A DNA stretch of 64,000 nt, taken from NCBI GenBank assembly GCA_024277915.1, contig JAJRUG010000028.1, forward strand, positions 1 to 64,000. Direction: 5' to 3'. Below the pieces are notes generated by a model. The model worked only from the letters and a program-made list of their open reading frames with translations, did not search any database and was not told the origin of the DNA. Of the stretch, positions 21,850 through 40,286 are shown piece after piece. The stretch is from Gammaproteobacteria bacterium. GTDB taxonomy: Bacteria; Pseudomonadota; Gammaproteobacteria; Steroidobacterales; GCA-2729495. Made by a program: the position numbers and the translations under genes. Numbering within the stretch: the first letter of the stretch is position 1; the number at the start of each line of letters is the position of its first letter.

Positions 21850-22791
21850 TCAAGCTGGGAAGAAGTCGATGGGCTTGGTAGTGGTGACGGGGAGTACGTC
21901 TTTTTCGAGGAAGCGGAAGAGTTTGACGCGCTGAACGAGTTTGCGTTCGAGTTCGGGGTCGGCGAGTTCGCTGGAGATGATTTCGCATGCGGAGACGGCG
22001 CCGGAAGGCTCGATAGTGAGGCGTAGCACGACCTTGCCCTGCAGTCCTGGATCTTTTCGCAGAGCGCGGTTATATAAGGCGTAGATGGCGCCCTTGTTTT
22101 TGTCAAAGACCATCTCGACTTCTTCACGGCTGCGAGCCGGACGATCACTTTCACCGGAGCGCTGGGGTGCATTACCTGCGAGACTGGCTACATTGCTGCT
22201 GACCTGGGTTGTATCCCGGCCAACCAGGCCACTGCCACCTGTATTCCGGCTCATGCCGGCGGTGTTAATACCGCCGCTGGCTTTGCCTGCGCTGGAAGTG
22301 ATCAGGGATCGCTCGGTTCGGGCGCCTTCGCCCGTTGCCCCGGCCAGATCACGGCTGTTGCTGACACTGGCGAGCACCTGATTATCACGCAAATCTGCCA
22401 GATCATCCGCAAAGGGAAGCAAACCTGCCATGGCCGCTTTCTCACGTGCCTTTTCAGTACGATCAATCTTCGGCACCACCGGCTCAACAACCGGATCAGG
22501 CTTGACTACCTTTTGCTCTTCAATTTTTGGTTCGGGTTTAAGCTCTTCCTGACGCGGTTGCACCACCGGCTCCGGCGGAGGCGGTGGCTTGTGTTCCAGC
22601 AATAATCTGGCAAACCGCTGCGGAACCTCTACAACGGCATTCGGATCAGGCTCGGGAACAGGTAAAAAAGTTATCAATAAAGAAAGCACCACCGTGGCGA
22701 TGAGCACCTTTTTCAGGGTACGTTGAAATGCCTGCCGCTGCGGTAACTCAAGCTCCCACGGGAGCGCATACACTCTATAATAAGTATCCAT
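21850..22791 (-). CDS. AgmX/GltJ-type TonB-like energy transducer
   Basis: A 313-residue inner-membrane anchored protein. One membrane segment (VLIATVVLSLLITFLPV) is followed by a Pro-Glu-Lys-rich periplasmic stretch (HKPPPPPEPVVQPRQEELKP). A Gly/Ser-rich linker comes next, and the AgmX/PglI C-terminal domain (VFDKNKGAIYALYNRALRKD, then GKVVLRLTIEPSGAVSACEI) ends the protein. Such proteins carry proton-motive-force work from ExbBD/TolQR-type stators to the outer membrane; AgmX is GltJ of Myxococcus gliding. ATG 22791 was chosen over TTG 22797. It is the last gene of the operon, 7 bp behind exbD. Confidence 0.85.
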   Translation of the reverse strand: MDTYYRVYALPWELELPQRQAFQRTLKKVLIATVVLSLLITFLPVPEPDPNAVVEVPQRFARLLLEHKPPPPPEPVVQPRQEELKPEPKIEEQKVVKPDPVVEPVVPKIDRTEKAREKAAMAGLLPFADDLADLRDNQVLASVSNSRDLAGATGEGARTERSLITSSAGKASGGINTAGMSRNTGGSGLVGRDTTQVSSNVASLAGNAPQRSGESDRPARSREEVEMVFDKNKGAIYALYNRALRKDPGLQGKVVLRLTIEPSGAVSACEIISSELADPELERKLVQRVKLFRFLEKDVLPVTTTKPIDFFPA

Positions 22792-22798
22792 ACTCAAA

Positions 22799-23350
22799 TC
22801 ACCCCTGCTCCGCCGCCATTACCGACGGCGCCGTCGCTGCCTGGCCGGGCTCAGCTTCTGGAATTTGCATGACTGCCAGAGAAATTTGTCCGTAGTCTGC
22901 CGCCGTGCAACTTGCCATGACGCGTTTTAGCAATTTGTAAGGCAACTCCCGATCACCCATGATGGTGACTTCCCGGTTGGCAACCCCGACAGTTGCTTGT
23001 TTGATCATCACCCGGTCAGACTGCCGCTGGAGTGCTTCTTTAAGGGCAGGAATAACAATCTCACGCTGGTTCATCACTTGATCCACAGTTGCGACCAACT
23101 TGCCTTGCACAAGAATTTGCTCACCGGTGACCATGATGATTACATTTTCCCGGGCTCTTTCTTCAGCAATGGATTCCGGCAGCTGAATTTCCTTGGCGTT
23201 CGGTAATACCTCCACATCACTGGAGTTCACCAACAGAAAAAACACCAGAATCGTGAATATATCCATCAATGAAACAAGGTTGAGCGACACTGTACGCTTG
23301 CCTTTTTCATTGCGCCTCTGCATCCGGAGCGCCCGTTGGGACATTTTCAT
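22799..23350 (-). CDS. ExbD/TolR-type stator subunit (second copy)
   Basis: This 183-residue biopolymer transport protein has a single membrane helix with the proton-channel Asp in VSLMDIFTILVFFLLV and a periplasmic ExbD domain. It is longer than usual for ExbD. A conserved pore Asp is present (LMDIF). Paired with the preceding ExbD copy and one ExbB, it mirrors AglQ/AglS of the Myxococcus motor. It starts 3 bp after the first ExbD gene ends. Confidence 0.88.
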   Translation of the reverse strand: MKMSQRALRMQRRNEKGKRTVSLNLVSLMDIFTILVFFLLVNSSDVEVLPNAKEIQLPESIAEERARENVIIMVTGEQILVQGKLVATVDQVMNQREIVIPALKEALQRQSDRVMIKQATVGVANREVTIMGDRELPYKLLKRVMASCTAADYGQISLAVMQIPEAEPGQAATAPSVMAAEQG

Positions 23351-23353
23351 TAT

Positions 23354-23857
23354 TTAGCTTCCTTTCGAACGCACTGGAGCGTCACCAATGGAAATCTCGG
23401 GGAACAGTTCAGCCTGAAACACCTGTCCATTATTCTGTGCCTTGAAAACACGCACCGTATCCATCACTTGCACCAGTACGTCATAGGAAATATCTGATTC
23501 AAGCAACAGCGTTGCGTCAATTTTGTCAGGATATTTAGCCTTGACCCGCTTGAGGTACTCGCTCAGCCCCGCCAGGTCATGGCCGGATTCGGTTCGTTGC
23601 AGCGCAGTCAGCAATCCGGTGTTCCGTTCACCCACTTCAATGCTGTCTTCACGCACGATAACTTCCAGCTGTATCACATCAGGCATATCATCGATCTGCT
23701 CCCCGGAGGAAGGAAGCGTCAGTTCGAGTATTGCCACTTGTGAAAAAACTGCCGTCATCAACAGAAATGGAACCAGAATAACCATCAGGTTCATAAAGGC
23801 CGTGATGTTGAGTTCAACCGCCTCGGTATGGCGCTTTTTGTGCCAGCGCTGCCTCAT
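23354..23857 (-). CDS. ExbD/TolR-like subunit lacking the channel Asp
   Basis: A 167-residue ExbD-like protein with one membrane helix (TAFMNLMVILVPFLLMTAVF) and a periplasmic domain. Where canonical ExbD has an Asp in the pore helix, this copy reads TAFMNLMVIL, with Asn. It may be a structural rather than proton-conducting subunit, combined with the second ExbD that keeps the Asp. Its ATG overlaps the exbB stop by four bases. Confidence 0.85.
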   Translation of the reverse strand: MRQRWHKKRHTEAVELNITAFMNLMVILVPFLLMTAVFSQVAILELTLPSSGEQIDDMPDVIQLEVIVREDSIEVGERNTGLLTALQRTESGHDLAGLSEYLKRVKAKYPDKIDATLLLESDISYDVLVQVMDTVRVFKAQNNGQVFQAELFPEISIGDAPVRSKGS

Positions 23858-24510
23858 GCGGCTTGCGCCTTCTGGGCACTGCGCCGGTCATCGACCGCAT
23901 TCAGAAACTTGACTGCAACCATTTCAAGACTATCAACGATTTCAGTCGTTTTGCTCTGCAGAACGGTATGAATCAACAATAGCGGAATCGCTGCCATCAA
24001 CCCGAAAGCGGTAGTATTCATCGCCACCGAAATACTGGCAGACAACATATCCGCTTTTTCTGCCGGGTTGGCAGCCGACACCGCTGTAAATGCACGAATC
24101 AAACCGATAATTGTGCCCAGCAAACCAAGTAAAGTAGCGATGTTGGCAAAAGTAGCGAGATAGTGAGTACGTTTTTCAAGACGCGGCATCACCTCCATCA
24201 AGCTCTCTTCCATCGCCTTCTCGATGTCATCACGACGGCTGGCTGCCTTGATGCGATACAAGCCATAGGTAAGAATTGTCCCGATCGCTGCCTTCGACTT
24301 TGATGTCACTGACACGGCTTCGTTAAACTTTCCTGCTGTGATATAAGGCGTGACCTTTTTCCACAACATCCTGTTGCTTATGCTGGTTTTGCTCAGAAAG
24401 ATATAGCGCTCTATCGCTATCGCTGCACCGATGGCAAACACCACCATGATCGGGTACATGAATACGCCCCCGTCCTGAAAAAATCCGACTATTGCTGAGT
24501 AAGTTTCCAT
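23854..24510 (-). CDS. ExbB/TolQ/MotA-type proton channel subunit
   Basis: A 218-residue inner-membrane protein with the three-helix ExbB fold. The first helix is MYPIMVVFAIGAAIAIERYI. The long cytoplasmic loop carries EKAMEESLMEVMPRLEKR, and the last two helices are IATLLGLLGTIIGLIRAF and MNTTAFGLMAAIPLLLIHT. It forms the proton-motive-force stator with the two ExbD-like proteins. GGAGAGG precedes its ATG. In Myxococcus the equivalent is AglR. Confidence 0.9.
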   Translation of the reverse strand: METYSAIVGFFQDGGVFMYPIMVVFAIGAAIAIERYIFLSKTSISNRMLWKKVTPYITAGKFNEAVSVTSKSKAAIGTILTYGLYRIKAASRRDDIEKAMEESLMEVMPRLEKRTHYLATFANIATLLGLLGTIIGLIRAFTAVSAANPAEKADMLSASISVAMNTTAFGLMAAIPLLLIHTVLQSKTTEIVDSLEMVAVKFLNAVDDRRSAQKAQAA

Positions 24511-24530: not shown

Positions 24531-24914
24531 CTAAGATCCGGCACCATCCGAGGGGATGATTTCCGGATTTTCATTCCTGTTTCCCTTTCCAGGGCCATAC
24601 AATTGATTGAAATACCTGATTTGTCGTCGAAACACATCACGGTCCAGAGGTGCGAGCACCTCATCTATCAGACTATTGACCGGCCGGCCCTGTAATTCAC
24701 CTGATCCGGACTCCTTCCAGGGAACGATATACATCACCTTGGGCAGTTCCTGGTTTCCGCGTATCGATGTACTGTCCAGATCAAGTTGATCGGCAACAGC
24801 GAGTTGTTCAACAGCCTTTGAGCTATCTGCCTGAACTTCGTCTGCATAAGATATCGGCGACCAGAACAGCATCGCCATGACAAATAATCCGGCCATTAGC
24901 AGTACTGTTTTCAT
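24531..24914 (-). CDS. Small exported protein of the TPR-ExbBD operon
   Basis: This 127-residue protein has a signal peptide (VLLMAGLFVMAMLFWSPISYA) and a periplasmic part with no recognised domain (KVMYIVPWKESGSGELQGRP is the most distinctive stretch). ATG 24914 overlaps the preceding TPR gene's stop by one base (TAATG), indicating coupled translation. By position it is probably a periplasmic component of the ExbBD machine. Confidence 0.75.
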   Translation of the reverse strand: MKTVLLMAGLFVMAMLFWSPISYADEVQADSSKAVEQLAVADQLDLDSTSIRGNQELPKVMYIVPWKESGSGELQGRPVNSLIDEVLAPLDRDVFRRQIRYFNQLYGPGKGNRNENPEIIPSDGAGS

Positions 24915-25528
24915 TACTGATGACCTGCCTGCGCGGTTCGCTGTGCGGCGCCAAGCCTGCGCTGCAGATCCGCAATCCACCGAATAACCTGACCATGCGT
25001 CGACTCGTCCATTTCGAGCTGCAAGTACTGCTGATAGTGCTCAACTGCAAGTTGTGGCCGGCGCAAATACAGATCGTAGAGCACGCCCAGGTTGTAGTAA
25101 GCCAGCGGGTAGTTTTCATCAGCGTCAATAGCACGCAGGTATGCTGCTTCCGCCTCATCGAAACGGCCCTCGCGCCGGAGCGAGATTCCCAACTGGTTAT
25201 ATGCGGCAGCGCAGTTCGAACATACTTCAATGGCCGACTCCAGAACTTTGATTGCTTCCTGATCCCGGCCATTACGGGTATGAATAATGCCCAGATTCAC
25301 CGCCGGGCCTGCGTAGTCCGGGTACTCGGCAGTCAATGACTCCAGCAGATCAGCCGCAGCGGGGTCATCACCACCTTCCATCTGCCCAAGTGCCTTTTCG
25401 TAACGAGCTAAAGCCTTGTCGGGAATTCCAGCATTGACATCGGTAACTTTTGTGCCTGGCATACTGCAGGCCGCAAGGCCTGATACGAGCAGCAACAGGC
25501 CGATTTTCCTAGTCCATTCTTGCAACAA
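24914..25528 (-). CDS. TPR lipoprotein, GltE-like
   Basis: The 204-residue lipoprotein has a clear lipobox (GLLLLVSGLAACS) and three or four tetratricopeptide repeats (for example NCAAAYNQLGISLRREGRFD). The second residue after the Cys is Met, so outer-membrane sorting is expected. The start is TTG 25528, supported by a strong GGGGAG six bases upstream and inside the end of the previous gene. The family and setting recall AglT/GltE, the TPR lipoprotein of the Myxococcus machine. Confidence 0.82.
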   Translation of the reverse strand: MLQEWTRKIGLLLLVSGLAACSMPGTKVTDVNAGIPDKALARYEKALGQMEGGDDPAAADLLESLTAEYPDYAGPAVNLGIIHTRNGRDQEAIKVLESAIEVCSNCAAAYNQLGISLRREGRFDEAEAAYLRAIDADENYPLAYYNLGVLYDLYLRRPQLAVEHYQQYLQLEMDESTHGQVIRWIADLQRRLGAAQRTAQAGHQ

Positions 25529-28325
25529 GATGCTCTCCCCTCTCTGATTTTGCGTAACGTCCCGGCATCAATTCCGCCAGCCGCGCATAACTCGATCGCA
25601 CCCATTCGTCGTATACGCCATCCGCCGTGCGTGCTGCGTTCATCTCATAAAGCTCAATGGCCTGCTCCTCGAACGGAAATGCCTGCTCTTCGAGCAAAAT
25701 ATCGTACTGCTCGATTTCCTCCGCATTCAGTTCCGAGGGGCGCTGTGAACCCATCAGATGCTGGCTGAGGACGTAATAAAGATCGGCAATTTCGAACGTA
25801 GAGGCCGTCGTGACTTCCGCTACTCCGTAATCAACAGCGTTGCCATAAGCAGCCAATGCCAGTTCCATCCGGTTGCGTTTAACTTGCAGGCTTTTCTTCA
25901 GGGGAATGGTCAGACGCGCCTCAATAAATGAGTCACGTAACGGTTCTGCAAGCTCCAGGGTCGCCCGGGCAGCCAGATACTTGCTGCGGTCAGTTCTGGC
26001 GGTTCCTGCTGCTGCATCTGCGGCCACGATATTTTTTAACCAGCGACTGCGCTCGGCAATATCACCCGCATCTTCAGCCAGATCAGCCAGCTGCAACCGT
26101 GCTTCTATTGATTCAGACAATGGATAGGGGTAACGCTGTACAATTTCTTCATAGACGCGGCGCAGCTCTTTCATATTGCCCGTTTTTTCGTACAGGTCGG
26201 CTGCTTGCCAGATTGCCTCACGGTGTATTTCCTCACCAGCCCCTTCCAGCCGGGCAATCTGCTCAAACTCTGCCGCCGCCCGGGAAAACTGCCCGGCATT
26301 CAAATGTGCAACAGCCAGTTTCCGGGTCACGTCGCTGGCGAATGCATGTTCTGGCCAGCTGGCACGAAACTGCTCCAGCACAACGACTGCCTCGGACCAT
26401 CTCTGGCTGGAAATCAGTAACGCTGCAGCATCATAGGTTGCGTTGGGTATGATTCCCGCACTCGGTGCGGCTGCTGATACGCGCATGAAATGTGCCACCG
26501 CTTCATCCACGTTGCCCCCAGCCCGTTGTTGTTCTGCCTGACGGTAGATAGATGCTGCGATCCGCTGCTCCAGCTCATCCGGATCATCGCCTTCCACTGG
26601 CGGATAGGTGCTGAGACGAACATATGCCTGCTCTGCCTTTGCAAACAGCTCCAGATCGAACTGCGCATGGGCCATGACCTTCCATGCGATGCGTTCGAGA
26701 TCGGTACTGGCAGGTGGCTGCAAAGTCACCACCAGTCCGGCAACCTCTACTGCGTGCTCCAGATCACCAGCAGAAAACAATTCTTCCGAAACCGCGGTCA
26801 GCAAGCTTGCGGCTTGCTCATGTTGCGGGAACTGTGCTGCAAACTTCAGAGAATGCTCGATGTATTCTGCGTGCCAGGCCTGGCGAGCCGGCTCATCTGC
26901 GATCAGCTTCTCGTGTTCTCTGCCCGCAAGTATCGCTGCATAGCCTGCCTCTGCCGCCAGCTCATGATCACCATAGTAGTAAGCTGCCCGGAGATATTCC
27001 TTGCTGGCTTCTGCAAACTGATTCGATTCAAAAAGAATTTCAGCCAGCAGAAAACTGCGCCTGGCTGAATCCGGATCATCCGGAAAATACTGCAGGTAAC
27101 TCCGGTACCATTCTGCAGCACGCTCATAGGCTTCCGGCTCACCGCTTTCCTGGGCAAGTGCATGATCGTAACTCGCCAGATCATTCAAGTTGTCCTTGAG
27201 ATGCTGAGCAACCAGTGGAAAATCAATAATGTCGCGATCAACCCAATAGGTGCCACTTAATCCATATAACTCGACGAACCGGCGCTTCGATTCCAGCACC
27301 AAAGATGGAAACCTGCCCAGTGTATGCGCCTCAATTGCCTGCACCTGTAAAAATGGTGACCGGGAATGTGCCGGCTGCCGGGTGACAAAACCGGAGTAAG
27401 CATCGGCAGCATCGGTAAAGCGTTCCTTGTCAAGGTACAAATCCCCCAGGCCTGAATAAAGCAAATTACTGAAGTGAATATCACCATTCTGATCCAGATA
27501 CCGGTCGATAGAAGCGACACCATCCAGATACGAGAAGGTAATGCTCAACACACGAAAGCTGTCCTCAATCAATTCACGCTCTGGCCTGCTCATACCATCA
27601 AACATGCCCACCGTATCCTGTGACTGGCGGAGTTCAAGCCGTCGTTCCAGCAGCATCAGGAATGAAGCCAGGCTTTCCTCGTTATTACCCTGTTTGAATA
27701 GCGCCCAGCCCCGCTTGTACAACGATTGCTCGTAGTAATCCGAGTTGTCACCCAGTGCAACTACAGCGGCATAAGCCTGCTCGGCTTCAAAGTAGCGCTT
27801 GCCAACGAACTGGATCTCGGCACGCCTGAATTGCACTTCATCGATCCGCGAGCTGCTGGGGAAATGAATAACCAGCTGATCCAGTACTGCCAGTGCCTCC
27901 TCAACCTCCCCGATACTCTCAAATGCCCTGGCCAGCTGATAGAGAACCTGATCAGTCTGCGAATAATCAGGAAAAGCATCCAGCAATTCCTGATAGAGAA
28001 CGATGGCCTCTTCATAGAACTTTTCTGTCAGCGCGGCTGCTGCATTATTCGCCTGTGCTTCTTCAGCCGCCTCCAGATTGAGATCAGCAAGCCGGCGAAC
28101 TGCTTCCACGCGCATGCCGGGATGCCCGGAGGATAGCGAGAGAAATTTCTGGTACTGCGCCCGTGCACGCGCGGCTCCGTCCGGAACCACGGAGTTGGCA
28201 TCAAGCTCAACAACCTGACTCTCCAGGCTCTTGATTGTCATTTCATCATCATGAGCATCATCTGTGTCGCCAAACGGCCACAGCCAACCCATGAGCAATA
28301 TATTGACAATCATCACCGAAGCCAT
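25509..28325 (-). CDS. Giant periplasmic TPR protein, GltD/GltI-like
   Basis: A 938-residue protein with an N-terminal signal or anchor (SVMIVNILLMGWLWPFG) and tetratricopeptide repeats along most of its length, such as YEEAIVLYQELLDAFPDYSQ and AEQAYAAVVALGDNSDYYEQ. No catalytic domain is seen. It is likely a periplasmic scaffold joining the inner-membrane motor to outer-membrane parts, as proposed for AgmU/GltD and AgmK/GltI. It overlaps the downstream TPR lipoprotein gene by 20 bp. Confidence 0.82.
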   Translation of the reverse strand: MASVMIVNILLMGWLWPFGDTDDAHDDEMTIKSLESQVVELDANSVVPDGAARARAQYQKFLSLSSGHPGMRVEAVRRLADLNLEAAEEAQANNAAAALTEKFYEEAIVLYQELLDAFPDYSQTDQVLYQLARAFESIGEVEEALAVLDQLVIHFPSSSRIDEVQFRRAEIQFVGKRYFEAEQAYAAVVALGDNSDYYEQSLYKRGWALFKQGNNEESLASFLMLLERRLELRQSQDTVGMFDGMSRPERELIEDSFRVLSITFSYLDGVASIDRYLDQNGDIHFSNLLYSGLGDLYLDKERFTDAADAYSGFVTRQPAHSRSPFLQVQAIEAHTLGRFPSLVLESKRRFVELYGLSGTYWVDRDIIDFPLVAQHLKDNLNDLASYDHALAQESGEPEAYERAAEWYRSYLQYFPDDPDSARRSFLLAEILFESNQFAEASKEYLRAAYYYGDHELAAEAGYAAILAGREHEKLIADEPARQAWHAEYIEHSLKFAAQFPQHEQAASLLTAVSEELFSAGDLEHAVEVAGLVVTLQPPASTDLERIAWKVMAHAQFDLELFAKAEQAYVRLSTYPPVEGDDPDELEQRIAASIYRQAEQQRAGGNVDEAVAHFMRVSAAAPSAGIIPNATYDAAALLISSQRWSEAVVVLEQFRASWPEHAFASDVTRKLAVAHLNAGQFSRAAAEFEQIARLEGAGEEIHREAIWQAADLYEKTGNMKELRRVYEEIVQRYPYPLSESIEARLQLADLAEDAGDIAERSRWLKNIVAADAAAGTARTDRSKYLAARATLELAEPLRDSFIEARLTIPLKKSLQVKRNRMELALAAYGNAVDYGVAEVTTASTFEIADLYYVLSQHLMGSQRPSELNAEEIEQYDILLEEQAFPFEEQAIELYEMNAARTADGVYDEWVRSSYARLAELMPGRYAKSERGEHLVARMD

Positions 28326-28340
28326 ACCTCTGATGCGCCC

Positions 28341-30206
28341 TTAGTTGCTCGCTGCCGTTGCACGATCGTACATCGTCGCCAGCGCAAACTGTGCCTGGAT
28401 CCGGTAAGTCGCGAGCCGTTCTTTCTGAGTCTCCAGTTCCCTGACAGCCATTACCTGAATCTCGTTCTGTTGCACGGCAAGCGCCTTAATAACCTTGGCC
28501 CGGACCTGGGCAATACGCGGTGCAAGTGAAGCGATGTGTTGCGAAAACTTTTCAAGATCGAGTGGCACTGAATCACGACTTGCATCAACGTTGTCACGAC
28601 GCTGCGCTGCTTCTGCAAGTGCTGCATCCAATTCACTCAACGAGCGTTTTTTCTGCCACAACCGATACTTGAATTTGCGATCAGATTCCCAGCTGAGAAA
28701 CCCCTTCAGCACCCGGTATTTTTCGCGCGCTTCTTCCATCCCCTCAGCCTGCCAGGCGGGATGGCTCTCAAGTGACTGAAGTGATTGCCATAGAAAAAGT
28801 TCGTTGCCCGTCGCAAGCCCGGCAACATCACGCGTTTGTTCGACCCCCTCAAGCCTGGCGGCCAGCCGATCACGATTTGCGAAGTGCCGGTCTAACTCAA
28901 CGGCGTCGAGCTGACTGTTGGTTGGTGCCAGTCGCTGTTCATAGGCTATCCACCGGGTCGCGACCATGTCATCAAATGCCTCAAGCTTCCTTGCCCAACC
29001 GTCAAGGTGCTGCTGCAGGGCCATCAGATCCCGGTAGTTGCGCAGACCATCCTGAAGCTCATGATTGGCAATGAGATGGTAGAGGTATCGGGCCTGGGTT
29101 GTGTCCGGAATATTCTCCAGTTGCCAGTACCAGCGGGCAATTTGCGGGTCATCCGTCTCAAGCAAGGCGGTAATCATGGTTCCATCGCGAGCGCTTTGTA
29201 TAGCAATATCAAGGCGGCCGATTTCCGTATCGAAATCCTCAAGTGCTGCCAGATAATTTTCTGCAGCACTGCCGTGAGCCTCAAGACGCCCCATCGCATA
29301 GGGCACGGCAAGCAGTGATTCCTGGACTGCACTATCCAGCAGGTCACGGTTTTTTAATTCCAGCCACGGAACCAGTGCCTGGCGGTAGTTATCCTGCGAT
29401 GCATCAGCCCAGCCGACACCCAGCAAAGCCTTGTTCGAGAAAGGGCCGTGCAGATTCACTCGTTGCAATACCGGTTTGGCCTGCCCTTCAAAGTCCTGCT
29501 GCAGATAAGCGTAGCCAAGTGCCAGATTGGCCTTGTCGCGCAGCGCACTGATTTCAGCAGAAGTGTCGGATAAAAGACCCACCTTGTTCAGAAGGCTGGC
29601 ACCCTGTTCCAACCTGTTCATGCGAACCATTGCAACACCGAGGTTGTATCGGCCATAGGCCAGCCAATCGCCTGGTCCCTGCCATGACTCCAGGATTTCT
29701 GCTGCGGGTTCAAACATGCCCCGGGCCATCAAACCCTGTGACATCAGCAAATGCCGTTCTGCATCCAGGTTCTGCGGCAACTCGTTGCCGACCCTGCCAA
29801 ACGCGACGTCGGCTGCATCATACTTTCCGCGCCGGTATTGCACCTTGCCGAGGTAGAACCAGGCGCGGTCGCGGATCGACCCATCCACTGACTCGTTCAG
29901 CAAGCGATCGAATATTTCACCGGCACGCTGATGCTGACCATAAGACAGATAGAGACCGCCAAGGAGCAATTCCGCTTCAGTCTCATGGTGAGTCAGTCGG
30001 TCTGCATCACGTGCAACCAGCAGTTTATTCAGCGCTGAAAAATAGTCATCCTGATAGAAGTCGAACAATACTTCACCGTAGTGAAGATCACGGATAATGC
30101 CTGTAGACAGTTTTTCCGCCCCGTAAACGGCAGAAGCAAGCAGGCATCCGGCTACCAATATGGCTAACGGGCGCAAAACACAGCAATGCCTCAAATCTAT
30201 TCCCAT
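28341..30206 (-). CDS. Large periplasmic TPR protein
   Basis: A 621-residue exported protein with a signal peptide (LAILVAGCLLASAVYGAEKL) and repeated TPR-like helices (GGLYLSYGQHQRAGEIFDRL, AWFYLGKVQYRRGKYDAADV). A long coiled-coil-prone C-terminal third follows. No enzyme motif is visible. It overlaps the gene before it by 10 bp and precedes the 938-residue TPR gene by 15 bp, so the three are one transcription unit. Confidence 0.82.
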   Translation of the reverse strand: MGIDLRHCCVLRPLAILVAGCLLASAVYGAEKLSTGIIRDLHYGEVLFDFYQDDYFSALNKLLVARDADRLTHHETEAELLLGGLYLSYGQHQRAGEIFDRLLNESVDGSIRDRAWFYLGKVQYRRGKYDAADVAFGRVGNELPQNLDAERHLLMSQGLMARGMFEPAAEILESWQGPGDWLAYGRYNLGVAMVRMNRLEQGASLLNKVGLLSDTSAEISALRDKANLALGYAYLQQDFEGQAKPVLQRVNLHGPFSNKALLGVGWADASQDNYRQALVPWLELKNRDLLDSAVQESLLAVPYAMGRLEAHGSAAENYLAALEDFDTEIGRLDIAIQSARDGTMITALLETDDPQIARWYWQLENIPDTTQARYLYHLIANHELQDGLRNYRDLMALQQHLDGWARKLEAFDDMVATRWIAYEQRLAPTNSQLDAVELDRHFANRDRLAARLEGVEQTRDVAGLATGNELFLWQSLQSLESHPAWQAEGMEEAREKYRVLKGFLSWESDRKFKYRLWQKKRSLSELDAALAEAAQRRDNVDASRDSVPLDLEKFSQHIASLAPRIAQVRAKVIKALAVQQNEIQVMAVRELETQKERLATYRIQAQFALATMYDRATAASN

Positions 30207-30730
30207 TCGCGAACCAGGAATTCGGGTTGCTGTTTGATCTGCCGGTCAGATATCTGCAGCTCAACAAATTTCGTACCGATGTTCTTTTCAAAATCAAGAG
30301 TTGCACCACGCCGATAGTCACGACCGTGCGGACCGGTGCCGGTAAAAATCGCCACGAGTTGATGGCTTCCGGTTTTCAGGTTACCCAGAAACAGGCGATG
30401 CACACCGCCGCGGTACATCGCTGCTACTTCTCTTTCGGTATAGAGATAATTACTGACCTCCTTGCCATCGAGTTTGATTTGCACGGAATCCAGGGAAAAA
30501 TATTCGCCGATATCCATTGATACGAATACTGATACCTGCGTATTGGCGGGGAACAGCAGCTCTTCCTCAAGCAGGAACAGCTCGCGGTTGAGCTCCAGAA
30601 CTTCATTCTTGAGGTTCTGAACCTGATCATCAAGACCCTCTGCCTGCCCGGCGCCAGTTGATGCCGCTGACAGAACAAAAGAAATGCCCAGACCTGCCAG
30701 CAAGGTCAGATTTCGTATGACTGCTTTCAT
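30197..30730 (-). CDS. Exported coiled-coil / beta-domain protein of the Glt-like operon
   Basis: A 177-residue periplasmic protein: signal peptide, then a heptad-rich helix (DDQVQNLKNEVLELNRELFL), then a beta-rich domain with VQIKLDGKEVSNYLYTERE and HRLFLGNLKTGSHQLVA. I cannot name the family with certainty, although comparable proteins accompany TPR and AgmX genes in Deltaproteobacteria. It is the first structural gene after the TlpA-like gene. Confidence 0.75.
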   Translation of the reverse strand: MKAVIRNLTLLAGLGISFVLSAASTGAGQAEGLDDQVQNLKNEVLELNRELFLLEEELLFPANTQVSVFVSMDIGEYFSLDSVQIKLDGKEVSNYLYTEREVAAMYRGGVHRLFLGNLKTGSHQLVAIFTGTGPHGRDYRRGATLDFEKNIGTKFVELQISDRQIKQQPEFLVREWE

Positions 30731-30781: not shown

Positions 30782-31321
30782 CTACTCTGCAAGCAGAGCT
30801 GTGACTTGATCCTGGTACTGCTCCGCATCGCCCTTGTCATGGCCCTGATGAATCCAGCGAACCTTTCCATGCGGATCAATCAGGACAAGCAGCGGCATTT
30901 TCCGAAGATCGTAGAGCTCGGCGACTGCATTCTCATCATCCATCAAGATCGGAAAATCAATGCCAAGATCATCCACCATGTCATTTACACGGTTTCGCTT
31001 CTTGTCCAGGTTGATACTTAACACCTGAAGGCTTGTTTGCTGATCAGTCGTGTTTTCGTATCGGTTGTTCAACTCACCGAGGACCGGAAGTTGATGCTGA
31101 CAACGCCCGCACCAGCTTGCCCAGAAGCTGAGCAGCACAACATCGCCGCGATACTCGCTCAGGCGAAGGTTTTTTCCGCCCAGTGTCTTCAGGGCAAAAT
31201 CCGGCGCCGGTTGCATGACCAGGTCACTGCGCGCACCCACTGCACCCGTGGCAACCATCAATAGCAGGGTAATTAACAATCCGCAGGCGGGGACAGTACG
31301 AACAGAGTCGCTCAGTTTCAT
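30782..31321 (-). CDS. TlpA-like thioredoxin, first gene behind the riboswitch
   Basis: A 179-residue exported thiol-disulfide protein. The signal peptide is CGLLITLLLMVATGAVGA and the redox site WASWCGRCQHQ (CGRC). The usual TlpA form is C-x-P-C; the Arg for Pro should raise the redox potential, though no value can be given. The cis-Pro motif is present (RKMPLLVLID). ATG 31321 has AGG at proper spacing; a GTG at 31333 is less likely. It is the first gene downstream of the c-di-GMP riboswitch and opens the TPR-ExbBD operon. Confidence 0.87.
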   Translation of the reverse strand: MKLSDSVRTVPACGLLITLLLMVATGAVGARSDLVMQPAPDFALKTLGGKNLRLSEYRGDVVLLSFWASWCGRCQHQLPVLGELNNRYENTTDQQTSLQVLSINLDKKRNRVNDMVDDLGIDFPILMDDENAVAELYDLRKMPLLVLIDPHGKVRWIHQGHDKGDAEQYQDQVTALLAE

Positions 31322-31467
31322 TCTTTGCCTCACGCAACCGATAGTTTTTTGCTATTGCTGCCGGTGAAAATATATCCAGCAGCAACTTTCAAAGCCTCGG
31401 GTTCGTCACAACAGACAAACCTGATGCACATTGACCAGGCTCATGACGCGGAGGGAATAACCATAGA

Positions 31468-31490
31468 CCGGGATACCGTACGGATCCCGG
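31468..31490 (-). promoter_or_regulatory. Hairpin just 3' of the riboswitch aptamer
   Basis: On the minus strand CCGGGATCCG-TA-CGGTATCCCGG folds into a stem of about ten pairs with one mismatch. It begins one or two bases after the aptamer ends. No U-run follows, so it is not a standard terminator; it could be part of the expression platform. Confidence 0.45.
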
Positions 31491-31491
31491 A

Positions 31492-31586
31492 ACAGGTAAC
31501 CCCGCTGCCCTGAACCATGCCCCGCTCGTGGGGTGGTGCTCATGGGCCGGTGGCTTTGCGTCCCCGCCTTGCAGCAAGTTTGCCCT
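31492..31586 (-). promoter_or_regulatory. Cyclic di-GMP-I (GEMM) riboswitch aptamer
   Basis: On the minus strand the aptamer runs GGGCAAACTTGCTGCAAGG, GGGGACGCAAAGCCACCGG, CCCATGAG, a variable stem CCCCACGAGCGGGG, then CATGGTTCAGGGCAGCGGGG and TTACC. The class-defining blocks GGGCAAAC, a GCAA tetraloop, GACGCAAAGCC-N-CCGGCC and GCAGCGGGGTTACC match the Vibrio Vc2 RNA in order and spacing. About 170 nt separate it from the TlpA-like ATG at 31321. A possible promoter upstream on the minus strand has TTGTCA and AATACA 17 bp apart. It lies between apbE and the TPR-ExbBD operon and points into the operon. Confidence 0.93.
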
Positions 31587-31758
31587 TGTCTGTGTATTGA
31601 AATCGGTTCACAACCTGACAATCCGGTCGCGGCTTGATTTCAGTCGCTATGGTGGCAAGAATTGCCGGGGATTCCTGTGATGCGGGTCACGCTTCAGGGA
31701 TGGGCAGATGAAAGTATTCTATTTATTTTCAATAAGTTATAAGCATTCCGCTAAAAAC

Positions 31759-34159: not shown

Positions 34160-35305
34160 TCAGAACCAGAAAGAGAAGAATAGTTGTATGACATCGGCCT
34201 CGAAGTCGTAGAGGGGTTCTTCGCCTACGGGGGTGGTTGCCCGGAGATCACGGAAGTCGTCGTAGCTGAATAGTATTCGCTGATAGCTGAGATTGATTGA
34301 GCCTTTGTCGATGAAATTCCAGCCGTGTTTGATGAATTCGTAACTCGCGGCCAATGTGACCGAGTGGTCTGTGTAGGTGCTCAGTTCCTTGTCACGCGCC
34401 AGAAAATTCTGCGCTTGCTGGAACGGAAAAAGATCACTGTAGAATCCGGCTTTGGTCTGGGTATAAAAACGATAACTGATATCAACGATCCACGGATCTC
34501 CGAAGGTATGCGTATAGCCTATGTCGGCGGTATGTGCAGTGATGTCCCAGGTATCCGTGGAATACCGGTAACTGCCGTGAATAGCGGCCCGGTAAGGGAG
34601 ATGGTACCTCGCCCGGATGGATGCAGCATTGCTGGTTCTGGTACCGGGGTAGATTTCCGGCTCGTAGGCGTATCCCAGCAAATTGCCCGGATCGGAGTCA
34701 ACATACCGTACCGTTCGATACGGATTGTTGAGAAACCCTTCGTCAGTGATTGCCTCGTAATTGAACCCTACGAGAAAATTGCGGGTGATGACCTGTGAGA
34801 TTCCCAGTCGATAGGATCGACGATCAATGTCAGCACGAAAAACATCATCACCCCTGCGGCGTACCTCGTCTGAGCCACGGCCATAGCCCATGGTGATGGT
34901 CGTCAGCCCGGAAAATACTTCCTGGCTGATACCGAAATTCATCGTATTGGCGGTATAGTCATTTTCGTCACTGGTCGTGAAACTGACACTCATGATGGTG
35001 TCATTGTTCAGGTAGTCGACGCCCAGGCTCATCTGGGTGCGCTCTTCCTCGTACTCACTGGCAGTCGTCACGACATCAATCGAAGCACTGCTGATACTGT
35101 CGATATAGTAGTTCGCAGAGACTGATATATTCCCGGTTACCTTCTTGCGCACCAGCAGTGAGGGTCCGTCAATCTGAATACCGCCACCATTATAGTAGTG
35201 GTACAGGGCATCAGCCCGGTCCTCAGGCAGCACGGCAGCTATCGATGCCAGCGAAACCAGGCTAAGACATGTGCTTGACAGTAATTTGTTCAAATGGGTT
35301 TTCAT
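34160..35305 (-). CDS. DUF3570 outer-membrane beta-barrel
   Basis: A 381-residue outer-membrane protein of the DUF3570 family. A signal peptide precedes DRADALYHYYNGGGIQIDGPSL, a family hallmark. Alternating strands follow (VTGNISVSANYYIDSISSAS) and the protein ends in FFSFWF. DUF3570 genes are typically paired with DUF4266 and a TlpA-like thioredoxin, exactly as found here. The substrate or partner is unknown. It is the last gene of a six-gene operon. Confidence 0.88.
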   Translation of the reverse strand: MKTHLNKLLSSTCLSLVSLASIAAVLPEDRADALYHYYNGGGIQIDGPSLLVRKKVTGNISVSANYYIDSISSASIDVVTTASEYEEERTQMSLGVDYLNNDTIMSVSFTTSDENDYTANTMNFGISQEVFSGLTTITMGYGRGSDEVRRRGDDVFRADIDRRSYRLGISQVITRNFLVGFNYEAITDEGFLNNPYRTVRYVDSDPGNLLGYAYEPEIYPGTRTSNAASIRARYHLPYRAAIHGSYRYSTDTWDITAHTADIGYTHTFGDPWIVDISYRFYTQTKAGFYSDLFPFQQAQNFLARDKELSTYTDHSVTLAASYEFIKHGWNFIDKGSINLSYQRILFSYDDFRDLRATTPVGEEPLYDFEADVIQLFFSFWF

Positions 35306-35332
35306 ATTGTCTTGTCTGCCGGGGTACCCTTG

Positions 35333-35560
35333 CTAGTTACAGCCACAACCGCCACCGCCACTACCGGTCGCACCACGGGCACCCTCGCGAGCCTCGTACA
35401 CATGGTCGATATATGCACTTGATACCGGGTTGCGATCAAAGAACATGATCGGGTCAGCCAGACGGTCGCGCTCATAGGGTTTGACCCAGGGCTCTACACT
35501 GCATGCAGTCATCGCCACACAGGTGACCGCGAGCAGAAACCTGAAGAAAATATGACTCAT
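35333..35560 (-). CDS. DUF4266 small lipoprotein
   Basis: A 75-residue lipoprotein with lipobox VAMTACS. The conserved DUF4266 core is WVKPYERDRLADPIM, and the tail is glycine-rich with two Cys (GSGGGGCGCN). The Cys-rich tail may bind metal or be a substrate of the adjacent thioredoxin. Its ATG overlaps the TlpA stop by four bases. Confidence 0.88.
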   Translation of the reverse strand: MSHIFFRFLLAVTCVAMTACSVEPWVKPYERDRLADPIMFFDRNPVSSAYIDHVYEAREGARGATGSGGGGCGCN

Positions 35561-36081
35561 AGCCGCTCTCTGACCAGGGTTCTGATCTGATCCTGGTAGT
35601 CATTCTCGTACCCGGCCTGATAGCCGTAGTGAACAAACCGGACATTCCCCTGCCGGTCGACCAATATCGTGGTCGGCATCGCCTCAACGCCGTACAGGCT
35701 GCTGACTGTTTTATCCATGTCAAAAAGTACCGGGAAGCTCACCGGGGTTTCCTTCAGGAAAGCTTTCGCCTCCTCCGGGCCATCTTCGACATTGACACCT
35801 AGCAACGTCACGCCCAATCGTTCGTAGCGCTGGTATATCTGCTCCAGGAACGGCATTTCTTTCCGGCACGGGGCGCACCATGTGGCCCAGAAATTGATCA
35901 GCACAACCTGACCGCGAAAATCGTTGAGCGAGACCATCTCACCGCTGCGATTCATCAGCGTGAAGTCCGGTGCTGCTTCCATGCGACTGTTACTTGAAGC
36001 AGGGGCAACCAGAATACCTGTGAGCAGTACTCCCAGGAAAACCCTGACAACAATTCGTCCAAAGTAAAGCGTATATTTCAT
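35557..36081 (-). CDS. TlpA/ResA-like thiol-disulfide protein
   Basis: This 174-residue exported thioredoxin has the classic site INFWATWCAPCRKEMP and the cis-Pro motif EAMPTTILVD. Cytochrome maturation (CcmG/ResA-like) or reduction of a partner lipoprotein are both possible. It is co-translated with DUF4266. Unlike the copy at 30782 it keeps the CAPC motif. Confidence 0.9.
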   Translation of the reverse strand: MKYTLYFGRIVVRVFLGVLLTGILVAPASSNSRMEAAPDFTLMNRSGEMVSLNDFRGQVVLINFWATWCAPCRKEMPFLEQIYQRYERLGVTLLGVNVEDGPEEAKAFLKETPVSFPVLFDMDKTVSSLYGVEAMPTTILVDRQGNVRFVHYGYQAGYENDYQDQIRTLVRERL

Positions 36082-36104
36082 AGTCCGCCTCTTATGAAAA
36101 AACT

Positions 36105-36770
36105 CTAGAAAAAGAATGACAAGCCAAAATTGAATTCAATGTTATTCACATTTTTCTTCTCACCAAGCAAATCCGTGCTGAATACCCTGTCGCGTACATC
36201 AAGGTGCACCGCTATCCAGTCGTTTACCAGCACCCGGTAACCGGCACCAAAGTTAATGGTGAAAAACTCATCTCCGGCGAAGCTGGTATTCCCGACCCCA
36301 AGAATAAAATACAGATCACTGCTGGACGCCCAGTTGCTGCCGACAAACACTTCGCCGGGCAACAGGTTGTAACCCAGTGAAATATCGTAGTATTGGAACA
36401 AGCGATCATCATCAGACAAAAGCGGAGCACCGCCGCTAAGCCGCTCAAAGCTGGTTTCCTCTGTATCGGTCCGGCCGTAGCTCGCCTCTACAAAGATCCC
36501 CTCGGTGACGTGGTAGGCAAGGCGCGCGCCGTACACTGCGTTTGAACCGAAATCCTCGACGCTCATGAAACCGCCGAAAATACCAAGCTCAAAGTCCTCG
36601 GTATCAATATCCGCCGCCTTGATTTCCCGGCGGTCAACCCGGGCATCGATCACCGGCTCTTTCTGGTCGGCATCAATATCCACGAGTTTGCTACTGCAAC
36701 CGATTGACGTCGCAGCCAGCGATGCAAGCAGAGTTGCCCTTAGAAGAAAAATGAGAATCCTAGTTTCCAT
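36105..36770 (-). CDS. Outer-membrane beta-barrel lipoprotein (TIGR04565-like)
   Basis: A 221-residue barrel of the OMP_myx type that is common in Myxococcales (TIGR04565-like). A lipobox-like signal (LLASLAATSIGCSS) precedes GIFGGFMSVEDFGSNAVYGA, further strands such as LYFILGVGNTSFAGDEFFTI, and a terminal LSFFF. Barrels of this kind occur as GltA/GltB in the gliding machine. The start lies 31 bp inside the preceding gene. Confidence 0.8.
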   Translation of the reverse strand: METRILIFLLRATLLASLAATSIGCSSKLVDIDADQKEPVIDARVDRREIKAADIDTEDFELGIFGGFMSVEDFGSNAVYGARLAYHVTEGIFVEASYGRTDTEETSFERLSGGAPLLSDDDRLFQYYDISLGYNLLPGEVFVGSNWASSSDLYFILGVGNTSFAGDEFFTINFGAGYRVLVNDWIAVHLDVRDRVFSTDLLGEKKNVNNIEFNFGLSFFF

Positions 36771-37474
36771 TCGTCGACTTCCTCGTTGTCATCCCGACTG
36801 GTAAAAACGACGTAGCTTTTATACTCCGCCCTGAAAACGAAACGCTGGCTCAGATAGGTACGAATACCTGCTCCAACATGGCCAATCTGGTCAGTTCTGT
36901 CTTCTACCTGAACCAGCGTGGCCTTGGGTTCAATACGAATAACACCGGTGCCCAGGGTAAGAAAGGGCATAACCCTCCATTCCGGGAACGGGACGTGAAT
37001 AATATTGGCATTCACCATCCAGCCATTGGAAATATCCCCGGTGATCTGCGAAAACGATAGTTCGGCTGATATATTTGCAGTAAAAGAATAGGCGCCATAG
37101 GTAGAAATGACATTGGCACCTTCGAAGTCGCCTGCCAGTACGCCCATTTCCCAGCGCCTGGTCGTGAAATCATCCTTGCCAGGATCATTGACGTCAGTCG
37201 GCTCACCTGAAGTATCCAGGGTTCTGGTGAGCTGAGAGATACTGACCCACCCTTTCACGCCCCGGGCAGTGCGCACCCGGAACCAGCTGGTGCGGCGCTT
37301 GATAATATCGATTTTCTCACCTTCGTCGACGACATGAAAAATCGGGTATCCCTGACCAGGACCGGTATGCAATTCAATATACGGATCCGCAACGACGGCC
37401 TGATAAAATTCGGTGTTTGCATAAGCCGGGTTGCCAAAACATGCAAAAAGTAAAATAGCGGAAAGAATTCGCAT
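36740..37474 (-). CDS. SH3 domain plus outer-membrane beta-barrel protein
   Basis: A 244-residue exported protein. The signal peptide is followed by a bacterial SH3 domain (ELHTGPGQGYPIFHVVDEGE, then RTARGVKGWVSISQL). A beta-barrel half then ends in FSFFF. SH3b domains bind peptidoglycan or peptides, so it may tie the barrel to the cell wall. It overlaps the next barrel gene by 31 bp, and the two are probably partners. Confidence 0.82.
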   Translation of the reverse strand: MRILSAILLFACFGNPAYANTEFYQAVVADPYIELHTGPGQGYPIFHVVDEGEKIDIIKRRTSWFRVRTARGVKGWVSISQLTRTLDTSGEPTDVNDPGKDDFTTRRWEMGVLAGDFEGANVISTYGAYSFTANISAELSFSQITGDISNGWMVNANIIHVPFPEWRVMPFLTLGTGVIRIEPKATLVQVEDRTDQIGHVGAGIRTYLSQRFVFRAEYKSYVVFTSRDDNEEVDEWKLGFSFFF

Positions 37475-37481
37475 GATTTTC

Positions 37482-40127
37482 CTAGTTCAGCGGCGCGTCA
37501 AAAGGATTGTTGTAGTACTGGCCACCGATATCCAGCCACTCGGAAACCAGTCGTAGCTCTGCCGGAGTGAGATATCCTGTGTGTGAACCACCTGCATCGA
37601 AGCGCGAGAAAAAAGCAGCAGAGGCATTCGCACCGCCCACTGACATTGACGGAGCCACGGGCACCGGAGCTAAAATCGGGTCACCGGTTATCGGATCAAC
37701 ACCCACCTGCACGGCACGATCCACCAATGCACCCATATCGATCTCCTGCTCGTTGTCACCGAACAGGAGTTCACGATAGGATCGGAAATGATCCGCCTGG
37801 TCGGCTGACAGACCATCGGTCAGATCAAGTTGCCCGTCGGGAACCTGTAGCTGGGCCATCAGATCGACGGTGTTGTGGCAGTTCGTGCAAGTATTGTCTG
37901 CCAGCACGGTAATGCCGTCGATATCAAGGGTGACCCGCGGCAATCCCCACAACGGGTGGATGAAAGTTTCGTAGTTGATGACGGTGCGACAGCGGTTTGT
38001 CCACGTGGTGAGACAGGAAACTGCGACCGGTGCCGGCGTATCAAGATCGGAATAGAGATAACTGAAACTTGCATCTTTCTGACGGCCGGCTGCAACCTCA
38101 TCAGTCCAGACATCTTCAAACACCACATCGACACTCGGCTCAATCGCATTGCAGTCAGTAGCGCAGCTAACGCGCATGCGGGTCTCTGCCATGGATTCGC
38201 CAATGTCGGTAAACAATGCCGGCTCCGTGTTGGGAAAAGGTATACCTGTCGTTACAGCACCCTGGTAAACGCTGTCGAAAGCATCCCTGCGGCCATGGGA
38301 AAGCCCGGTAGTACGGTCATGACAACCATCGCACTGCACAACTTCTCCAGGCCTCACCTGCAGCCAGCTCTGGTGACGCGGCGTTATTCTGCGACCGTTC
38401 GCATCCAGAACGCTGATCGCAAGAGCAACATCTGCCGGCACTTTAACGATGACAGAACCATCAGGCTCAATCGGCGCATACCCGATAATCTCTTTCATGC
38501 CCTGGGCATTGCTGCGCCCAAAAGCTGTACCGGCGAAGTCCAGCACATCGCGATCCGGCAGAGATACGGCCTTGATGACACGCAGGAACCGGGCAGGTCT
38601 TTCCGAGGCCAGCGTCTGTGCCGGATCTGCCAGTGTTTCGATGTCAGGGATTGCTGTATCAACACCGTTAATGTCATAGACGCTGCGGATATTCAGCAAG
38701 CCGACCCCTTCCAGTATCAGTTCCGGATCAAGCTCCCCGGTAAATTCCTTGTCAACGATCACCGGGGGAGCCGTACGTGGCTGAGCGGCCACAACATCAG
38801 TAAATAATATCCCCTCTTCAGCCGGGACTACCGGTAACTGCGTATCATCAGACCGGTCATAGATCCAGATTCCGTAAAGCGGATCGGCTTCCAGAGCAGC
38901 CGGGTCTGCCAGACGATCAGGAGTACAGGGCACAATCACTTCATTCTCTACCAGCCGACACTGGCTCCAGGTCACAAACATCCGTCCGGTACCGTCCCAC
39001 AACGGGAATACCGAGCCAAACTTTCCTCCCGGAGAAATCTCGCCATTGGTGCGCACATCATTGATCACAGCAGCAGTCTGGGCCGGGCCAGTCAGCACAC
39101 CGGCATTTGCAACCACTGGTTGAGTATTCTCAACGTAGTTTGGTGTATCAATGAAATTAAGATCGCCACCAAGATCACTGGTAACAAATGGTCGCAGCTC
39201 GACAATGATCTGCCCGTCCGGCATTTCACGAGCCTGAAGAAACTGTATGGTCGCGTTGTCAGTACCTGTGTCGTGACTGTTCTTGCCGTATAGAAGCTCA
39301 AGCTCTGTCCCGTCCGGGTTCATGCGATACAGGTTGATAGCATTGTTGCCCGCCATGTTATCCCAGCGACTGAATACCACCCGGCCGTCGCTCAATACCG
39401 AAGGATCCTGATCGTGACTTTGGTTAAAAGTGACCTGTTTGATCTCACTGCCATCATCATTCATTACATGCAGCTGGAAGCCGAATTCATTGCGATCTTC
39501 GTCTTCGGCGGAAAACTGCGGCTTTCCTTCATCCAGCAAAATTGCCTTGGACTGGCGCTGCCGGGTTGATGAGAAAATAATGCGGCCATCAGGCAGGAAG
39601 TGCGGCGCCAGATCATGCCCCGCCTCGGCAGTAATATCCGGGCTGATGACGCGGCTTAGCTGGTCTGTTTCGATTTCATAGATCCAGATATTCCATGTGG
39701 GCTGATCTTCTTCCTGAGCACCTTCGATAAATTGCGCACGCATCGCGAAAACTATTCGTGCTCCGTCGTAAGAAAACTCGGCATCCTGAACGGCACCGAG
39801 ACCACCGGTCACTGTGCCGGTGATATTTCGTTCCACAGCACTGGGTGAAGCCCTGTCCCGCATAAACAGGTCTGCACCAATATTGAAAGTGATCAGTTCC
39901 CGCGCATCTGACGGTTCAATCACATCCTGGTTGTCTACCGGCAGCGGCTGTTTAACGTATGCGACAGGCATATCAACGACCACTGGATCCGGTTCCTGCC
40001 CACCACCAAGATCAACACCACCATCGCCGCTGCAGCCGGCTGCCAGCAGCACCGCCGCAACTAATAGCAATAGTCGCGTATTGAAAAAGCTTTGTTTCAC
40101 TCGACTGACCCACGTCCATGCAGCCAT
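37482..40127 (-). CDS. HZS-alpha-like di-haem lipoprotein with WD40/PD40-like propeller
   Basis: An 881-residue lipoprotein (lipobox LLLAAGCSG). The first half contains TolB/PD40-like propeller repeats (AEFSYDGARIVFAMR, LPDGRIIFSSTRQ, LSDGRVVFSRWD). The second half resembles the hydrazine-synthase alpha-subunit middle domain. Two CxxCH haem sites appear: CDGCH (near residue 598) and CTNCH (near 746). ATG 40127 has GAGGGG at good spacing and starts the signal; the frame extends to 40217 without support. Hydrazine synthesis is not implied; related proteins are widespread in bacteria without anammox. It heads the operon leading to DUF3570. Confidence 0.75.
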   Translation of the reverse strand: MAAWTWVSRVKQSFFNTRLLLLVAAVLLAAGCSGDGGVDLGGGQEPDPVVVDMPVAYVKQPLPVDNQDVIEPSDARELITFNIGADLFMRDRASPSAVERNITGTVTGGLGAVQDAEFSYDGARIVFAMRAQFIEGAQEEDQPTWNIWIYEIETDQLSRVISPDITAEAGHDLAPHFLPDGRIIFSSTRQRQSKAILLDEGKPQFSAEDEDRNEFGFQLHVMNDDGSEIKQVTFNQSHDQDPSVLSDGRVVFSRWDNMAGNNAINLYRMNPDGTELELLYGKNSHDTGTDNATIQFLQAREMPDGQIIVELRPFVTSDLGGDLNFIDTPNYVENTQPVVANAGVLTGPAQTAAVINDVRTNGEISPGGKFGSVFPLWDGTGRMFVTWSQCRLVENEVIVPCTPDRLADPAALEADPLYGIWIYDRSDDTQLPVVPAEEGILFTDVVAAQPRTAPPVIVDKEFTGELDPELILEGVGLLNIRSVYDINGVDTAIPDIETLADPAQTLASERPARFLRVIKAVSLPDRDVLDFAGTAFGRSNAQGMKEIIGYAPIEPDGSVIVKVPADVALAISVLDANGRRITPRHQSWLQVRPGEVVQCDGCHDRTTGLSHGRRDAFDSVYQGAVTTGIPFPNTEPALFTDIGESMAETRMRVSCATDCNAIEPSVDVVFEDVWTDEVAAGRQKDASFSYLYSDLDTPAPVAVSCLTTWTNRCRTVINYETFIHPLWGLPRVTLDIDGITVLADNTCTNCHNTVDLMAQLQVPDGQLDLTDGLSADQADHFRSYRELLFGDNEQEIDMGALVDRAVQVGVDPITGDPILAPVPVAPSMSVGGANASAAFFSRFDAGGSHTGYLTPAELRLVSEWLDIGGQYYNNPFDAPLN

Positions 40128-40286
40128 AAGAACACCCCTCAGGATTAGATCCGGTAATGCGAGTTTCACCGCTTTTGAACCCGAAAAGCACAGCAACGTA
40201 ACGTAATACAACGACATTTCATTGATCTGTTAACTCCATCACAGAAGGGTTCAGCCGTAGACGCGATAAACGCATCGTGGCAGGAA

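Follow-up and report, generated by a model that had tools for sequence, protein, structure and literature searches.

The DNA analysed here, called the window, is the whole stretch of 64,000 nt. Its minus strand carries, from 31321 to 21850, ten co-directional genes, several of which overlap and none of which lies more than about 51 nt from the next, in agreement with the original prediction that a TlpA-like gene opens a ten-gene operon extending to 21850. The genes are the following:

30782-31321, minus strand: gene 1, TlpA/ResA-like thioredoxin-fold protein (PF00578, 84 bits)
30197-30730, minus strand: gene 2, P2, exported coiled-coil and beta-sandwich (Ig-like) protein, the operon marker (predicted model, pLDDT 80)
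28341-30206, minus strand: gene 3, TPR protein of 621 aa, GltC-like candidate (PF13174, 28.7 bits; PF14559, 27.0 bits)
25509-28325, minus strand: gene 4, TPR protein of 938 aa, GltD-like candidate (several TPR families)
24914-25528, minus strand: gene 5, TPR lipoprotein of 204 aa, GltE-like candidate (TPR_12, 72.8 bits)
24531-24914, minus strand: gene 6, small exported protein (signal peptide read from the sequence; no family match)
23854-24510, minus strand: gene 7, ExbB/TolQ/MotA-type channel, AglR-like candidate (PF01618, 103.5 bits)
23354-23857, minus strand: gene 8, ExbD/TolR protein 1 (PF02472, 54.6 bits)
22799-23350, minus strand: gene 9, ExbD/TolR protein 2 (PF02472, 58.5 bits)
21850-22797, minus strand: gene 10, AgmX/PglI-type transducer with a TonB-like C-terminus, GltG-like candidate (NF033768, TIGR01352)

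P2 has no match in Pfam or NCBIfam, and a fold search with its predicted structure gave no significant match. Gene 5 matches the Tgl and GltE models weakly, below their cut-offs; gene 10 reaches 65.6 bits with NF033768 (cut-off 40) and 29.5 bits with TIGR01352 (cut-off 27.1). The products of the operon would form a proton-driven ExbB-ExbD motor which, together with an AgmX/TonB-type transducer and TPR scaffolds, would span the envelope.

The region upstream of the TlpA gene contains a predicted promoter and a long leader, whose elements are:

31677-31690, minus strand: CRP-type palindrome GTGACCCGCATCAC (GTGA-N6-TYRC), centre 31683.5, predicted at -41.5
31649-31657, minus strand: extended -10 element TGCCACCAT at conserved spacing, hexamer at 31654-31649
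31491-31593, minus strand: c-di-GMP-I riboswitch aptamer (RF01051, 61.9 bits, gathering score 35; RF03167, 60.0 bits, gathering score 59; lineage model R1, 81.4 bits)
31468-31490, minus strand: hairpin CCGGGATCCGTACGGTATCCCGG, directly 3' of the aptamer and without a U-tract, read from the sequence
31437-31457, minus strand: candidate switching segment TTCCCTCCGCGTCATGAGCCT, putatively complementary to the aptamer core or to the ribosome-binding site (RBS)
31328-31335, minus strand: predicted RBS of the TlpA gene GCGTGAGG

The aptamer is the sole riboswitch found in the window (cmscan, Rfam). It lies on the coding strand of the 5' leader, 170 nt ahead of the TlpA start codon, and the E-value is 1.2e-11 both for RF01051 (match at C176:31492-31594) and for RF03167, the c-di-GMP-I-GGC model. 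A GEMM-I aptamer on the minus strand had been predicted here with its class-defining sequence blocks, and class, strand and position proved correct, all the blocks being present in the order claimed; the Infernal search with RF01051 proposed as a check scored above the threshold. The extent given for it, 31321-31590, was right as to location, but the start at 31590 clips 3-4 nt of P1, and the end at 31321 is the TlpA start codon and not the end of the aptamer. Helices P1a, P2 and P3 are fully paired, P1 being ACAG/CUGU, P3 contains a bulged A, and the GCAA tetraloop is present.

Transcription would start about 31642, a position taken from the sequence as 7 nt past the hexamer, at a promoter whose CRP site, according to sequence conservation, would be centred at -41.5. 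This is the position of CRP at class II promoters. In the lineage of the window, GTGA-N6-TYRC stands exactly 22 nt ahead of an xAxxxT hexamer in 21 of 22 riboswitch leaders, an arrangement seen in none of 200 shuffles; the hexamer resembles CACCAT and is usually preceded by TGn. The distance from the hexamer to the aptamer varies between 5 and 130 nt across these leaders, so conservation of the aptamer does not account for the spacing of the palindrome; in two of them (L015 and L020) the predicted start coincides with the first bases of the aptamer. The genome of the window encodes a genuine CRP (NF008732, 314.9 bits, cut-off 266). Clp, a CRP relative that binds c-di-GMP, was also considered as the regulator and rejected, because the protein of this genome reaches about 260 bits with CRP/Vfr and 198 bits with Clp and is thus closer to the former.

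The palindrome and the hexamer are also kept, with the same spacing and ahead of the same operon, at riboswitch-free loci, namely 13 of Woeseiaceae type and two others, and no remnant of a riboswitch was found in the Woeseiaceae leaders. Judging from these leaders, the riboswitch would either have been inserted behind a pre-existing CRP-type promoter or have been lost in the Woeseiaceae-type loci. Since the CRP-type promoter is conserved and is found on the riboswitch-free Woeseiaceae operon too, cAMP-CRP, through predicted binding of CRP, and c-di-GMP probably converge on the envelope machine. In the other riboswitch-bearing lineages (Steroidobacter, L033, L042, L044-L046, L051, L083, L041 and L086) the CRP-type promoter was found in 0 of 13 cases, and mostly a TTGACA-like box takes its place; within the genome of the window, none of the eight further riboswitches has a CRP-type site ahead of it.

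As expected from its class, the aptamer would fold in the nascent leader, and bound c-di-GMP would alter the fate of the leader that remains. No intrinsic terminator was found in the leader as an expression platform, and the likeliest read-out would be translational, with the segment at about 31457-31437 pairing with either the aptamer core or the TlpA RBS. Binding of the ligand would then free this segment to block the RBS, and c-di-GMP would lower expression. Folding predictions for the window give an RBS accessibility of 0.23 when the aptamer is enforced, 0.56 when its pairs are forbidden and 0.61 without constraint. In 27 leaders, enforcing the aptamer instead of forbidding it lowers the accessibility by more than 0.1 in 7 and raises it by as much in 0; relative to the unconstrained ensemble, accessibility rises in the leaders L017 and L072. 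Sequestration of the RBS as a universal mechanism was discarded, no change being predicted in most of the 27 leaders.

A 13-nt segment able to pair with both the aptamer core and the RBS scores better than shuffled spacers overall (Fisher p 0.004), and in the window itself this dual complementarity has p 0.016 against shuffled spacers, with duplex energies of -14.8 and -16.1 kcal/mol; these p values are optimistic, because the leaders are related to one another. Controls with other aptamer strands or with a shuffled core gave values of 0.16-0.99, and RBS-only pairing gave 0.02, so that the signal for dual pairing is modest. A simple anti-aptamer duplex was tried as well and set aside: it has p 1e-4 over the related leaders, but for the window the value of 0.17 is not significant. 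These predictions would fit a translational OFF switch, a tentative reading to which we give slightly less than an even chance.

A reading that itself comes close to an even chance is that of an ON switch, or of control by Rho-dependent termination or RNA stability instead of ribosome access. The leader without an intrinsic terminator and the unchanged RBS of most leaders agree with it, and so do the other c-di-GMP-I riboswitches of the genome, which precede exported or surface proteins, two of these with VPLPA-CTERM-like tails and one near an XrtD exosortase. If the switch were of the ON type, cells would produce the machine when sessile and high in c-di-GMP, alongside the surface proteins under the genome's other riboswitches. 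Against an ON switch stand the accessibility changes exceeding 0.1, all of them drops, and the dual complementarity, which, of the aptamer strands tried, is particular to the core.

The link between riboswitch and operon was followed across genomes with P2 as the marker. P2 occurs in 58 genomes of a 274-genome sample of the class and, within the order, in 87 of 147. Nineteen genomes of the window's family carry it and 18 could be tested, the contig of the remaining one ending too early; in 16 of these 18 a riboswitch above the cut-off lies on the same strand upstream of TlpA-P2. The two exceptions are L023, whose copy is degenerate and scores 31 bits in R1, and G119, with no adjacent riboswitch. 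Among 80 GTDB loci, some of which come from the same genomes as the family sample, 23 have the riboswitch within about 1.2 kb upstream of P2, those of Steroidobacter agaridevorans, S. gossypii and Peristeroidobacter agariperforans among them, and at another two it lies about 7 kb upstream. On the P2 tree the presence of the riboswitch is strongly clustered (9 changes versus 27.5 when shuffled); its distribution needs several gains or losses, and the tree is compatible with either. In 50 genomes of other orders that carry the operon, no riboswitch adjoins P2, most of them being without the riboswitch class altogether, and the occurrence of the operon without an adjacent riboswitch outside the order implies that the machine does not need the riboswitch.

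This synteny, conserved across several families, is strong indirect evidence from comparative genomics that the riboswitch controls the envelope operon, which had been proposed as its target and is supported as such. A rival reading is that the riboswitch acts on TlpA alone or yields a separate short RNA, the motor genes having their own promoter, or that it is a decaying remnant. A non-coding RNA with a c-di-GMP riboswitch is known in Bdellovibrio (PMC3627812), a precedent for a short RNA, and the degenerate copy of L023 and the lack of an adjacent one in G119 also speak for this set of explanations; but the gaps within the operon are short, with several overlaps, the window copy, with 81.4 bits in R1, keeps every ligand residue and helix, and riboswitch, TlpA and P2 remain together in diverged families, which makes the whole set improbable.

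The ligand can be predicted from the positions equivalent to G20, A47 and C92, which we take to be the ligand-contact residues of the Vc2 aptamer structure. The window has the canonical G, A and C at these places, and they are invariant in 24 of 24 aligned aptamers from the window's genome and its relatives, where 12 of 22 base pairs have changed on both sides (shuffled mean 5.0 pairs, slid controls 3-6). Since these residues are canonical, the predicted ligand is c-di-GMP, not cGAMP and not the ligand of the GGC variant, and by its sequence the aptamer belongs to the c-di-GMP-I class. That it is a variant for another ligand (the GGC variant or a cGAMP-type GEMM-Ib) is highly improbable: RF03167 does rank above RF01051 at the aptamer and exceeds its gathering score, but both the window and each of the 24 aligned aptamers have A at the A47 equivalent, where the RF03167 consensus has G, and G at position 20, where cGAMP-type GEMM-Ib aptamers carry A20, and the RF01051 score far exceeds its own cut-off. 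The near-tie between the RF03167 and RF01051 scores is thus no evidence for the GGC variant. Direction apart, it is very probable, as far as sequence can tell, that a c-di-GMP riboswitch controls the ten-gene operon.

Just upstream of the operon, the minus-strand block 34160-40217 forms a separate unit. It encodes an HZS-alpha/PD40 protein with CxxCH, a protein with SH3 and an outer-membrane barrel, another barrel, a second TlpA and a DUF3570 protein, and no riboswitch was found ahead of it (best score 6.5 bits with filters off). In one family (f10) a single c-di-GMP-I riboswitch heads an operon that fuses counterparts of these genes to the core complex, in the order HZS-alpha/cytochrome-type, lipoprotein-like, more envelope proteins, TlpA, DUF3570-like, P2 and core complex. 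Four genomes carry, right behind a paralogous core operon, a c-di-GMP-I riboswitch and the gene of a secreted protein longer than 1,000 residues (L126 11936-16000, L127 11812-16001, L128 10762-13998 and L129 10812-14000). DUF11 repeats were detected in both of the two giant proteins scanned among the four, and these secreted proteins are possible cargo of the machine.

The genome of the window contains nine c-di-GMP-I riboswitches and about 15 GGDEF genes. On contigs C64 and C78 (L125 1501-8222 and L122 1501-3124) the riboswitches precede exported proteins with VPLPA-CTERM-like tails, and one of the two precedes an XrtD exosortase and a PrsT-like TPR gene. On contig C96 (L121 1501-3030) the riboswitch lies ahead of the gene of an aldonolactone-oxidase-like enzyme that binds FAD, which is unusual as a target of c-di-GMP-I riboswitches, and on contig C175 (L123 5332-7388) it directly precedes a multi-pass membrane protein without a Pfam family and a small lipoprotein-like gene. 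Moreover, the motif T[TG]ACATA[AT] recurs upstream of aptamers (L007, L015, L017, L020, L029, L041, L050, L083, L086, L102, L108, L116, L126, L127, L129 and L130), is inverted in L004, L033 and L125, and in some leaders is located at -35 to -37 from the aptamer; this recurrence suggests that it is perhaps a promoter or regulator box.

Conservation across relatives, mostly behind the same CRP-type promoter, suggests that the machine is used in surface living. The fused and paralogous operons, the exported proteins under the genome's other riboswitches and a Bdellovibrio case taken up below would suit such a use. A broader proposal, which we regard as speculative and unlikely, is that the gammaproteobacterial core complex, jointly controlled by cAMP-CRP and the c-di-GMP riboswitch, serves a surface lifestyle by moving, secreting or anchoring surface proteins, some of them riboswitch-controlled; it draws on the fused operon of f10 and on the giant proteins encoded, with a riboswitch ahead of them, behind the paralogous core operons of four genomes. 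The literature searched, mostly open-access, yielded no paper tying c-di-GMP-I riboswitches to an ExbB/ExbD/AgmX operon, in line with the original prediction that the link was unreported. The riboswitch class is known, its target operon is apparently unreported, and the conserved CRP-type promoter is apparently a second input. The likeness to the Agl/Glt core complex, the CRP-type promoter and a tentative direction of control are what the present analysis adds to that prediction. An orphan, widespread, force-transducing envelope machine would in this way be tied to two second messengers, of surface living and of nutrient state, and these ties offer concrete conditions under which its phenotype can be sought. 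The same promoter, with the riboswitch in some lineages and without it in others, is a natural experiment on what the riboswitch contributes.

Compared with known systems, the window RNA shares with the c-di-GMP-I (GEMM-I) riboswitches of RF01051 the fold, the conserved blocks, G20/A47/C92, the GNRA tetraloop and the position in a 5' leader, and it differs in a long apical extension of P3, a platform without an intrinsic terminator and its apparently unreported target operon. With the GGC variant of RF03167 it has the overall fold in common and exceeds the gathering score by one bit, but the variant-defining position is A and not G. The predicted promoter resembles class II CRP promoters in the GTGA-N6-TCAC palindrome at -41.5 from the predicted start, the extended -10 element and the encoded CRP; unlike them, it leads into a riboswitch, and its start site is a prediction. 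In Bdellovibrio, the amount of transcript from an aglQ homologue is affected, through a mechanism yet to be explained, by the GGDEF enzyme Bd0367, which makes cGAMP (PMC9140294). In both cases a cyclic dinucleotide is tied to Agl-like genes, there cGAMP from Bd0367 and here a riboswitch of c-di-GMP type acting in cis.

The closest counterpart of the operon is found in the Agl/Glt machinery. Luciano and colleagues (PMC3169522) described a gammaproteobacterial 'Group B core complex' composed of gltC, gltD, gltE, gltG, aglR, aglQ and aglS in one cluster, with the addition of one gene without myxobacterial homologues, whose function was unknown in 2011. By gene content, the window operon resembles this Agl/Glt core complex of the Myxococcus gliding machinery: it likewise has one ExbB-like gene and two different, adjacent ExbD-like genes, both clusters have a transducer with an AgmX/PglI C-terminus and three TPR proteins, which in the window are candidates for GltC, GltD and GltE, and both gammaproteobacterial clusters include genes without myxobacterial homologues. 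To this core complex the window operon adds TlpA and the riboswitch leader.
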